From: a virus
Length of the DNA: 27,797 nucleotides
Strand: one strand, 5' to 3'
IMG/VR virus record: IMGVR_UViG_3300027692_000008
Span: 1 to 27,797 of that record
The position numbers and the translations under genes are program-made. The notes below the pieces were generated by a model. That model saw nothing but the letters and a program-made list of their open reading frames with translations. It did no database searches and was not told the DNA's origin. Of the stretch, positions 12,219-15,596 are shown piece by piece; within the stretch, counting starts at the first letter, position 1; each line of letters opens with the position of its first letter.

Positions 12219-12242
12219 CAAAAACGGCCCGCTAAGGGCCGT
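12219..12242 (-). terminator. Intrinsic terminator of the primase operon
   Basis: ACGGCCC (12224-12230) pairs with GGGCCGT (12236-12242) around a five-base loop, GCTAA. On the minus strand the stem is followed by five T and then GCG, a classic intrinsic terminator placed nine bases after the stop of the last leftward gene. On the plus strand it lies just after the 59-residue gene but lacks a T-tract, so it may terminate weakly in that direction. Confidence 0.8.
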
Positions 12243-12250
12243 TCGCTTGT

Positions 12251-12430
12251 CTACCTCTCGCCTAGTACCTCCCCGACCTGTGAAACCCGCCTGGCGGCTT
12301 CTGCCAGCTTCTCATCGGCCAGGGCGATGCACGGCTGGCACCACATCGGCCCCGACCAGCGGACCAACTCCAAGAGACCTACGTCAAACGGCTTGGAACA
12401 CGCAACACAGAAAACCGAATCTCGTTTCAC
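12251..12430 (-). CDS. Small zinc-ribbon-like protein
   Basis: This 59-residue protein starts at GTG 12430, overlapping the previous stop as GTGA. It has two CxxC knuckles, CVAC at residues 8-11 and CQPC at 31-34, about 20 residues apart, followed by a helix rich in Ala, Glu and Arg. Such a four-Cys arrangement binds one zinc ion and is common in small phage nucleic-acid- or protein-binding proteins. It is the last gene before the terminator. The exact role is unknown. Confidence 0.65.
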   Translation of the reverse strand: MKRDSVFCVACSKPFDVGLLELVRWSGPMWCQPCIALADEKLAEAARRVSQVGEVLGER

Positions 12431-12615
12431 TTCATCTCCTTCATCATCGCCCAGATCTGAGCCACGCTTTCTTCCACTTCGATCTCAACGCGGTTCTCTG
12501 CCAGTTGCACGCGACTACCACTTTCGTAGCCCGTGCAAACCATCGCGATGCGGGCGATCGGGATAAGCATCTGAAAACGCTTTTCGGTTGCAGTTCTCGT
12601 CACTCTTATAAACAT
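12427..12615 (-). CDS. Small protein, unknown
   Basis: This 62-residue protein starts at ATG 12615 with AAAGGA upstream. The N-terminal half is basic and beta-like (MFIRVTRTATEKRFQMLIPI). The C-terminal half is an acidic helix (RVEIEVEESVAQIWAMMKEM). It lies 129 bases after the primase-helicase stop, beyond the CCTCAGC repeat cluster, so it may be expressed by read-through or from a promoter in that cluster. I recognise no family. Confidence 0.6.
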   Translation of the reverse strand: MFIRVTRTATEKRFQMLIPIARIAMVCTGYESGSRVQLAENRVEIEVEESVAQIWAMMKEMK

Positions 12616-12648
12616 TTCATTTTCCTTTCATTTAATGGTTTTGTCTTG

Positions 12649-12825
12649 GCTGAGGTTGCTGAGGTGCTGAGGTCTTATAGACACCTCAGCAACCTCAGAC
12701 TTCAGCCGAACCTCAGCACAACCTCAGCACAACCTCAGCAACCTCAGCCGAGAAAATCCTCAGAATCGTCCAAGCTATAGCAGTCAAGGCTTTGCCTTAT
12801 GGCCCCCATTTGTTCCAACCTCAGC
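12649..12825. repeat. CCTCAGC/GCTGAGG heptamer cluster, possible origin or operator
   Basis: GCTGAGG occurs at 12649, 12658 and 12666. The reverse complement CCTCAGC occurs at 12684, 12711, 12722, 12733, 12742 and 12819, with degenerate copies at 12693 and 12758. A perfect 17-bp inverted repeat pairs 12650-12666 with 12682-12698 around a palindrome, GTCTTATAGAC. The copies at 12711, 12722 and 12733 are exactly 11 bp apart. The cluster straddles the 3' end of the primase-helicase gene and the following gap. Iteron-like arrays beside a replication gene often mark origins; an operator or attenuator is the alternative. Confidence 0.85.
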
Positions 12826-14723
12826 AACACCACAGCCATGTTTTTTTTCTGTTTTCCGGGGTACTTGTCAAGAAGAATTTCAAAAATCTTATCCTGGTGG
12901 ACTTTTCCGGTCGTGGATTTGTGCAGTTCGTCTTCGATAACCGCCAAAACTTCGCGGCTCAAGTCGTACCGTGAATCGTTCAGATTGGCAAGTTTCGAGG
13001 GCCTCTTCCCCGTCTTCTCGACATCCTTCTTGATTGGTTCCACAACGCAAGTCGTGACCTCGTCACCTTCACCGTCGTGGCCGACGACAACGCGTTTGAG
13101 TACGAAACTGAAACTGCTGCCGGTGGCGTCGTCACGCGACTTGGAAAGAACGGCACCGTGCTCCTTGTCGTTCTTGAACACTTCCATGACGAAATCGGCG
13201 CCCGCGAAGAGGGCTGACGAACCCCGCATGCCTTTGCTGTCCTCCTTGCCTGTGTGGTGTACCGCGAGCACCATCGCGCCCGTAGCGAGGCTCAGATCCT
13301 TGCACGCGGCGAGGAACAGGCCCATGTCCTTCGCACTGTTCTCATCCCCTGAATGCGAAGCCGCCATCGTATCCAGGATGATCAAGCCCGCTTGGCCGAT
13401 GGCGTCGGCGAGTTGTTGTGTGTCCGAAGACAGCAGATTGGGTGCGGATGCGATGATGTCGGGGCGCGCGCCGTCGGGGCATACATACTGGTCGTAGGCG
13501 TCCATTCGCTTCTTGACGCCCTCGCGGGCTTCTGCCGCCACGTACACCACGCGGCATTCGGATACCTTGCGCCCGCGCCAAGCGGCACCGCGCGCCACAG
13601 TGGCGGCGAGATCCAGCACGAAGAACGTCTTGCCGGACCCCGACTGGCCGTAGAGAATCCCGACTTCGGCTTGTGGAAGCACGCCCTTGATGATCCACGG
13701 CACGCTCAGGTAATTCTGCTTGTAATCGCCCCAAGCGTGAACCGCGAAGGGGTTGTCAGACTTGGCACGCGGTTTGTGTTCTTCCTTCGGCGGCTGGCCG
13801 GTCTCGGGCAGGAAAGAGCGAAGCGTAGTCATGCGGCCTGTGTAGCTGCCGATCGAGGCGTACTTGGCTTCGAAGACTTCATCGATGTGCTTGCCTGACT
13901 TCTGCGAGTAGGCGCGCGCCACTTCGATACCCGCTTCGCCCAGCTGGTGGTGCACGGCGCACAGCACGCCGAACCACCGATCGTAGTCGTCTTCGTCGTT
14001 CTTGATGCGCGAAACTACCCATTCGGCTTGGGCGTCGGTCAGGTTGGTCTTGTCGATGTGGTCAATGAATGGGTCATCTCCTGCACTTGCTGCAATATCT
14101 CGTTCTGCCGGCGCAGACTTTCGAGACCAAAGCCCGTCATCAACCATTCTTCCCGCAAGTATCTCGAATGCGTCAACAACGCGTTGAGCGTCATTTCGGG
14201 AAAGGGCGGGAAGTGATTCGCGGGCGGTAGACCGGATTCCGTCATCAGCCAAGCCGTCCCACCAATCGTAGGGTCTGAGAGTTTCCGGATGAACGTGATA
14301 GGCAACCCACTGCTGCCCGTCGCCAAGGATTTCGACTTTGTGATCATTTACGCCATCCGTATAAACATTGGAAGTCAGTTTCTTGAAAGGATCGTCGGAG
14401 CGAAACGGAATCAGGAACTTCGGCGCGCGACCCGTGCGCGTCATCAGCGCTTCGCCGGGGAAGATCCCGTCAATCAGGTCCGACATTTCTTGAGCCGCCG
14501 CTTCATCCAGGATATCCACGTCGATTGCAGGCGTGTAGCGGGCCAGCACGCCGATGCCGGCATCCGCCGAGCCGTTCGCCGCCATCTTGTGAAACGTCGG
14601 CTTGTCGAGCTTGAGCGACGGCCAGCCTTTGAGCCTTGGCCCCTTGCTGCCCGGAGGCAACGGGACAATGAGATAACCCTGGTCGAGTAGCTGCTCGCCC
14701 AGGTTTTTGAAGTATTGAGTCAT
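12744..14723 (-). CDS. Primase-polymerase/RecA-like helicase fusion
   Basis: The protein has 659 residues from ATG 14723, which overlaps the upstream stop as ATGA and has GGAT upstream; an in-frame TTG at 14750 is less likely. Residues 1-165 form an archaeo-eukaryotic PrimPol domain with catalytic AIDVDILD (Asp68, Asp70), RTGRAPKF near 96-103 and the late His in YHVHPET near 142-148. Residues 240-305 resemble a PriCT linker. Residues 340-560 form a RecA-like ATPase with Walker A GQSGSGKT (359-366), Walker B LIILDTMAAS and LAVHHTGKEDSKGMRG. A winged-helix-like tail follows. It should prime and unwind DNA at the phage replication fork. It is transcribed opposite to the polymerase operon. Confidence 0.92.
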   Translation of the reverse strand: MTQYFKNLGEQLLDQGYLIVPLPPGSKGPRLKGWPSLKLDKPTFHKMAANGSADAGIGVLARYTPAIDVDILDEAAAQEMSDLIDGIFPGEALMTRTGRAPKFLIPFRSDDPFKKLTSNVYTDGVNDHKVEILGDGQQWVAYHVHPETLRPYDWWDGLADDGIRSTARESLPALSRNDAQRVVDAFEILAGRMVDDGLWSRKSAPAERDIAASAGDDPFIDHIDKTNLTDAQAEWVVSRIKNDEDDYDRWFGVLCAVHHQLGEAGIEVARAYSQKSGKHIDEVFEAKYASIGSYTGRMTTLRSFLPETGQPPKEEHKPRAKSDNPFAVHAWGDYKQNYLSVPWIIKGVLPQAEVGILYGQSGSGKTFFVLDLAATVARGAAWRGRKVSECRVVYVAAEAREGVKKRMDAYDQYVCPDGARPDIIASAPNLLSSDTQQLADAIGQAGLIILDTMAASHSGDENSAKDMGLFLAACKDLSLATGAMVLAVHHTGKEDSKGMRGSSALFAGADFVMEVFKNDKEHGAVLSKSRDDATGSSFSFVLKRVVVGHDGEGDEVTTCVVEPIKKDVEKTGKRPSKLANLNDSRYDLSREVLAVIEDELHKSTTGKVHQDKIFEILLDKYPGKQKKNMAVVLLRLEQMGAIRQSLDCYSLDDSEDFLG

Positions 14724-15307
14724 ATGAGATCCAGAATAGGCGAGCGGCAACGCGAAGCCATCTCAACCAACCAAAGGGCGAAAGCTTCGGGCGTTGCTTC
14801 CCTCTCGCGCCGCGTAACTTCCGGGCGGAAGGCCGGGTGATCCCTGTGTTGCCGGCCGTTCGAGTTAGCTATAACGTGAGTAGGGCGGCCGGGGCGGAAA
14901 GGCAATGGTGGCACTTCTTCGGGAGAGCATCCGCAAACGTAAAGCGCAGTCGCTTTGTCAGCCTTATGCCCCCAGTGGAACTGTTTTACATGGACGGTGA
15001 AGCCGCCCCACTGATCGGTTTCACCAAGCGCGGGCAAAGGTTTTTCCTTCCACAAGCGCGATGCGCGAGGATGCTCAAGCACGCCGCCACACACGCGGAT
15101 CATGTCTACCGCCCATAGAGCCAACTCCCGCTCGCCAGGTCTCGGATTTGCCATATGCGATAGTTGGCCCCAAGCGCGGCACGGCGGGTGCGCAACGATA
15201 GGGTCAAAGCCCGTGTATGTAAGCGCGTTTCTGTCCGCATCGAACACATCACAATCGGGAAGAGTTTTGTACACACTGTCTTTTCGCGCGAAGAGAACAG
15301 CCACCAT
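14720..15307 (-). CDS. HPPC-motif phage protein, possible degenerate methyltransferase fold
   Basis: This 195-residue protein starts at ATG 15307, overlapping the AlpA-like stop as TGATG, with GGAGG just upstream. Most of the longer upstream open frame is a shadow of the AlpA-like gene. Residues 1-30 include VLFARKDSVYKTL and CDVFDADRNA. Residues 39-46 read AHPPCRAW and residues 76-80 VLEHP. The Pro-Cys motif followed by an LE(H)P motif recalls motifs IV (PC) and VI (ENV) of cytosine-5 methyltransferases, but the SAM-binding FxGxG motif is missing and the protein is short. I have the impression that similar proteins are frequent but uncharacterised in phages. It lies between regulator and primase-helicase, so a DNA-related role is plausible. 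Confidence 0.7.
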   Translation of the reverse strand: MVAVLFARKDSVYKTLPDCDVFDADRNALTYTGFDPIVAHPPCRAWGQLSHMANPRPGERELALWAVDMIRVCGGVLEHPRASRLWKEKPLPALGETDQWGGFTVHVKQFHWGHKADKATALYVCGCSPEEVPPLPFRPGRPTHVIANSNGRQHRDHPAFRPEVTRREREATPEAFALWLVEMASRCRSPILDLI

Positions 15308-15541: not shown

Positions 15542-15545
15542 TAAG

Positions 15546-15571
15546 AAAAAGCCCGCTTGAGAAGGCGGGCT
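15546..15571 (-). terminator. Intrinsic terminator of the Cro-like operon
   Basis: AGCCCGC (15550-15556) pairs with GCGGGCT (15565-15571) around an eight-base loop. On the minus strand the stem is followed by TTTTTCTTATT. It lies 25 bases after the stop of the 38-residue membrane protein and separates two leftward operons. Confidence 0.85.
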
Positions 15572-15596
15572 CAAATTACAACGAAGGAGATTTCGG

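Follow-up and report, generated by a model that had tools for sequence, protein, structure and literature searches.

A hypervariable repeat array behind a phage AAA_25 primase-helicase gene: a predicted self-recognised iteron origin

Introduction

The repeats bound by SaPI Rep and by SCC Cch2 lie just behind the genes of these proteins (PMC7581432), and the rep-ori segment of EcCICFT073 maintains a plasmid, with both rep and ori being required (PMC6092414). In pRN1 an essential stem-loop lies just downstream of the ORF904 gene, and the authors of that study propose the same arrangement for Bordetella phage BIP-1; in RSF1010 the hairpins ssiA and ssiB serve priming (PMC4234260). E. coli island arrays of AAGTGAG or AAGTGGG may already be visible in Fig. 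2a of PMC6092414. Our literature search, which had little reach into subscription papers, found no description of arrays behind AAA_25 phage genes. How initiators and origins co-evolve and become mutually incompatible is a long-standing question for iteron replicons.

Here we describe a repeat array in a 27.8-kb virus record, referred to in its entirety as the window, which contains phage terminase, portal and replication genes. An earlier note had proposed that an array of CCTCAGC heptamers at the end of the primase-helicase gene is a candidate replication origin, and the comparisons below support that proposal.

Organization of the repeat array

All nine exact copies of CCTCAGC in the window fall between positions 12649 and 12825, with 3.65 copies expected for the entire window in shuffled sequence, and among unrelated heptamers the most clustered one reaches four copies per 200 bp. 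The earlier note had the number of exact copies right but their orientations exchanged, as CCTCAGC reads forward six times and in reverse three times on the plus strand. Its packing of the copies into about 180 bases also stands, except that the outlying copy at 12819-12825, which sits in coding sequence, is probably not an array member because in relatives it does not change along with the repeat word (L016). CCTCAGC is also the BbvCI recognition site, and all nine such sites of the phage record are located in the array or at the end of the adjoining gene.

Multiple short iterons lie immediately 3' of the presumed replication-initiator gene, and the array begins on the stop codon itself, the TGA (12744-12746) being contained in the first GCTGAGG in coding-strand sense. 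Reading on in this sense there are four direct copies of GCTGAGG at spacings of 9, 11 and 11 bp, a degenerate copy and two further direct copies, followed by the short palindrome GTCTATAAGAC, three inverted copies, an A+T-rich stretch and the next gene (Table 1). The three copies reported at exact 11-bp spacing are confirmed at 12711, 12722 and 12733. The perfect 17-bp inverted repeat is likewise present (12650-12666 and 12682-12698), but it is centred at 12674 and not on GTCTTATAGAC (12672-12682) as had been described. The iteron sets are fused in the window, and the A+T-rich stretch is beside them rather than between them.

Table 1. Coordinates of the array components and of the primase-helicase gene in the window.
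Feature	Coordinates	Strand	Basis or details
Inverted iterons GCTGAGG	12649-12655, 12658-12664, 12666-12672	+	Motif count
Hairpin: inverted iteron pair 12666-12672 / 12684-12690 around GTCTTATAGAC (12672-12682)	12666-12690	.	Sequence and clade comparison
Direct iterons (coding-strand GCTGAGG)	12693-12748	-	12742-12748, 12733-12739, 12722-12728, 12711-12717
Degenerate direct iteron	about 12700-12707	-	Part of the 12693-12748 direct set
Direct iteron CTGAGG	12693-12698	-	Part of the 12693-12748 direct set
A+T-rich stretch adjoining the array, candidate unwinding site (role inferred); also contains the ribosome-binding site of the next gene	12612-12646		Sequence
Primase-helicase gene (Prim-Pol, PriCT_2, AAA_25, C-terminal winged helix), presumed initiator	12744-14750	-	ORF, Pfam, alignment
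Predicted C-terminal winged helix, proposed iteron-binding domain, about residues 593-660	12771-12974	-	AlphaFold2, Foldseek
Predicted recognition helix, about residues 635-647, containing Asn637	12810-12848	-	AlphaFold2

The gene behind the array (12427-12615, minus strand) encodes a 62-residue product without Pfam or PHROG matches that by eye has some likeness to small FlbD-like proteins; in L010 and L019 an unrelated cysteine-rich protein is encoded at this position. A terminator-like site at 12222-12244 closes the genes downstream of the array. Positions 15543-15592 (minus strand) match the Rfam family Betaproteobacteria_toxic_sRNA below threshold (23.5 bits, gathering score 50, E 0.92); this match is probably the terminator-like hairpin found there.

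A fixed place and a changing repeat word

Close relatives with 69-93% identical protein have the same array at the same place, and the array also occurs in more distant relatives with other repeat words, so that the occurrence in relatives for which the earlier note had called was found. At 60-67% identity the array is present, and in most of these relatives direct copies of GCTGACTT replace GCTGAGGTT (L013, L015, L016 and L025); at 49% identity the word is TTGAGCA, and at 27-41% identity the words include ATCACA, GCCGCA, GGATAA, CGGGAC, GGTAAC, GAGTCA, GGGTAC and many others. The word changes in all copies together between lineages, with more than 20 different words in all, and concerted change of this kind is what a protein binding site predicts.

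A first survey found a significant array in 58 of 60 stop-codon regions, and a wider one found arrays at 43 of 72 loci, the 29 loci without an array including a group of similar array-less loci; the loci are related to one another and the survey counts are therefore not independent. After thinning of related loci, and with an array defined as five or more non-overlapping occurrences of a single hexamer within 300 bp, both strands counted, arrays were found at the ends of 37 of 38 related genes versus 14 of 332 other gene ends on the same contigs. The homologues in Caulobacter GB2A and mycobacteriophage JAMaL have no array behind the gene. In one further locus (L041:4719-5050) there is no array at the stop codon, and GGGACA repeats with a CCCTTTAGGGG hairpin start about 200-300 bp downstream; this array is displaced, lies outside the surveyed interval and was hence missed.

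In a frequent layout a block of two or three direct and one or two inverted iterons is followed, after a spacer, by two direct copies, the hairpin and a final one or two inverted copies; many relatives have two iteron sets separated by a spacer. The spacing of neighbouring iterons on the same strand peaks at 9-10 bp, about one turn of DNA.

The palindrome GTCTTATAGAC belongs to the hairpin at 12666-12690, which is this clade's version of the family hairpin with CTTTAG or CTATAG at its centre. All ten of its base pairs are kept in every relative of the clade, two of them with changes on both sides. A centre of CTTTAG, CTATAG or a close form is present in 46 of 81 loci with an array, in one of the 27 loci that lack one and at 43 of 640 control gene ends, and the hairpin centre is therefore far more constant than the variable iterons.

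Similar arrays occur in elements other than phages. The 35-kb circular plasmid of M. currus encodes a TOPRIM primase and an AAA_25 helicase, and behind the helicase gene there is a GCAACA array, the strongest on that plasmid, consisting of three direct, one inverted and two direct copies, CCCTATAGGG and two inverted copies. No other replication initiator was recognised with Pfam and NCBIfam in the subset of its proteins that was scanned. Four circular plasmid records of 17-38 kb (L175, L176, L180 and L182) contain phage genes and an AAA_25 gene with an iteron array behind it, and are likely phage-plasmids or satellites caught as circles.

Proposed recognition of the iterons by the helicase

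The product of the primase-helicase gene has 668 residues and contains Prim-Pol, PriCT_2 and AAA_25 domains (Pfam); its start codon is uncertain, with relatives suggesting the ATG at 14723. AlphaFold2 models the C-terminal 94 residues with helices at residues 19-37, 45-55 and 61-74 followed by two strands (mean pLDDT 74), and Foldseek searches with this model return mostly winged-helix proteins, at weak E-values.

A first scan of genome contigs with the protein family of the window gave no match. An E. coli satellite island beside roxA encodes an AAA_25 helicase that is a homologue of the window protein (28% identical, E=8e-36), with AAGTGAG repeats behind its gene. Alleles of the island helicase have Asn at the variable position of a K-X-F motif in the predicted recognition helix together with AAGTGAG, and His together with AAGTGGG, in two sequence backgrounds. 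Scanning genomes identified 80 further loci, mostly in Enterobacterales, and the residue agrees with the base at GTG-X-G in all 62 scorable loci (N-A 19, K-G 29, H-G 8, S-C 5, G-C 1), the helix position having been located by pattern and not from the structure of a complex, and the GTG-X-G motif having been chosen after the first arrays had been seen. A tree built from 61 rows of the helicase core, with the C-terminal part left out, has at least eight residue changes and at least seven base changes. The independent pairs, three N/A and two S-or-G/C, all agree, and their number is too small for a sign test to give 0.05.

The repeat word is element-specific and matched to the C-terminal domain of the presumed initiator, as judged from the concerted word changes and from these AAA_25 homologues. 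The window protein has Asn637 at the aligned position and the word TGAGG, which fits the satellite match and is not an independent test of it, both Asn637 and TGA being constant in the window's own clade. Within this clade the word GAGG accompanies the helix KKNMAVVLL or KRNLAVVLL (the window and L020) and GACTT accompanies RRNMVPLVL, a correspondence that is suggestive only. Identity across the whole C-terminus is a weak predictor of the repeat word (r=0.21), and the word-determining signal appears to reside in the recognition helix rather than in the C-terminus overall. The earlier note had offered either the primase-helicase or an AlpA-like protein as the binder of the array; because of the residue-base match in homologous helicases, the data point to the adjacent helicase and away from the AlpA-like protein.

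The AAA_25 island can be compared with a second island beside roxA. This one, EcCICFT073 in CFT073, encodes a D5-type (SF3) helicase with GGTAGA repeats behind the gene, and its protein is 62% identical to the AAA_25 island protein over the first 125 residues, the N-terminal primase domain. The two islands (L181 in E. coli O145, with AAA_25, and L186:12242-14285, EcCICFT073, with the D5-type helicase) share a primase domain, have different helicases and each have their own array; helicase and array therefore differ together, and on sequence grounds the pair is a natural swap of helicase plus putative origin.

Alternative explanations and a proposed mechanism

The suggestion that the array could equally be an operator or an RNA structure controlling the two small genes downstream is disfavoured, since the array persists where the genes behind it differ, the long mRNA stem is not conserved and the iteron spacing fits one turn of DNA. 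An operator, bound either by a regulator or by the primase-helicase itself, is an unlikely reading, even though the downstream genes have the same orientation, a ribosome-binding site comes directly behind the array, and an initiator bound to iterons may also influence transcription. The array remains with the helicase in relatives whose downstream genes differ from those of the window (L010/L019, L015 and L016), the repeats of homologues match the recognition helix of the helicase itself, and a scan for promoters and terminators found none in the array; the TATA-like centre of the hairpin is not conserved in relatives.

A long transcript stem governing translation, decay or termination would account for the folding of the array RNA, which is far better than that of shuffled sequences (z -7.6), and for the compensatory changes in the hairpin, but folding of the opposite strand is just as good (z -7.8), and the outer 18-bp stem of the possible mRNA is broken at word-specific bases in a sister clade. 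Direct copies that have no pairing partner also change in concert, there is no U-run, and an Rfam search of the window gave no family at the array, with only a sub-threshold match to mir-766; we regard such a structure as very unlikely to explain the array. Clustered repeats are generally known at packaging, partition and recombination sites too, but a site of this type is extremely improbable here, as the array is tied to the helicase gene in phages, plasmids and satellites alike, irrespective of their terminase, ParA or integrase, and the window's large terminase gene is 1.3 kb away. Cumulative GC skew, put forward earlier as a check on the origin, turns at about 17,500 where the genes switch from the minus to the plus strand; it therefore marks gene direction and is uninformative about the origin.

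We thus consider that the array is very probably the replication origin of the phage, or its core. The position of the array, its concerted variation, its spacing and its hairpin are read from the sequences themselves, as is the residue-base match in homologues, and from these we infer binding in this phage, ring loading, unwinding and priming at the hairpin. In the mechanism we propose, the winged helix of each subunit would dock onto one iteron, the direct and inverted repeats would position helicase rings on the DNA, the DNA of the hairpin or of a neighbouring stretch would be opened, and the fused Prim-Pol domain would synthesise the first primers, perhaps at the hairpin.

The distribution of the arrays suggests that such origins are common in phages with AAA_25 primase-helicases. 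On balance we favour the broader view that the AAA_25 helicases of phages, phage-plasmids and satellites define a widespread and unrecognised class of two-part origins, in which hypervariable iterons would be recognised by the winged helix of the helicase itself through a simple residue-to-base code, a near-invariant CTTTAG/CTATAG hairpin would serve in loading or priming, and helicase and array would form one mobile cassette. The repeat, so far unannotated, becomes the predicted origin of a large phage group, with a simple rule for finding it, namely to search behind the AAA_25 primase-helicase gene, and the residue-base match provides a testable model for the co-evolution of initiator helicases and origins and for their mutual incompatibility.

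Comparison with known systems

Several described origins share some of these features. The pRN1 ORF904 protein also combines Prim-Pol, helicase and winged helix in one polypeptide (PMC4234260), but its helicase is SF3, and there are no iterons and a single large stem-loop. The RSF1010 origin resembles the array in having iterons plus hairpins and a RecA-like helicase, RepA, that is related to AAA_25 (PMC4234260); it differs in using three separate proteins, RepA, RepB' and RepC, with RepC as a dedicated iteron binder. No RepC-like gene was found among the window proteins scanned, and a hairpin is present in the array. Phage P4 alpha likewise combines primase, helicase and winged helix and binds repeats at the P4 origin (PMC4234260), although with a TOPRIM primase, another helicase family and other repeats. 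In SCC Cch2, as proposed here, the helicase C-terminal domain binds repeats downstream of its own gene, at a putative origin (PMC7581432), whereas the repeats are AAGTG in three copies only, the helicase is D5-type and the primase is separate.

The nearest parallel is with the rep-ori of SaPIs and PICIs, where the origin also lies directly 3' of the initiator helicase gene (Ubeda et al.; PMC6092414; PMC7581432) and there are also sets of short element-specific iterons and a DNA-binding domain at the helicase C-terminus, the latter being predicted here. The tested E. coli PICI has an SF3 (D5) helicase, whereas here an AAA_25 helicase is fused to Prim-Pol, in a full-size phage and with a CTTTAG-type hairpin; Pfam finds AAA_25 and no D5_N or SF3 domain in the window protein, which has no significant alignment to the EcCICFT073 protein. 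Origins of the SaPI/PICI type have two iteron sets on either side of an AT-rich region, to be compared with the two spaced sets of many relatives and the fused sets of the window. PICIs have a satellite gene set that lacks a full complement of virion genes, and the window instead encodes a large terminase, a portal and its own DNA polymerase. The element is not a PICI and its helicase is not of the D5 family. As a predicted origin, the array is at odds with the published opinion that only PICIs have this layout. From these sequence comparisons we conclude that the array is a predicted self-recognised iteron origin of the SaPI/PICI type, carried by a full-size phage, served by another helicase family and provided with an added hairpin.
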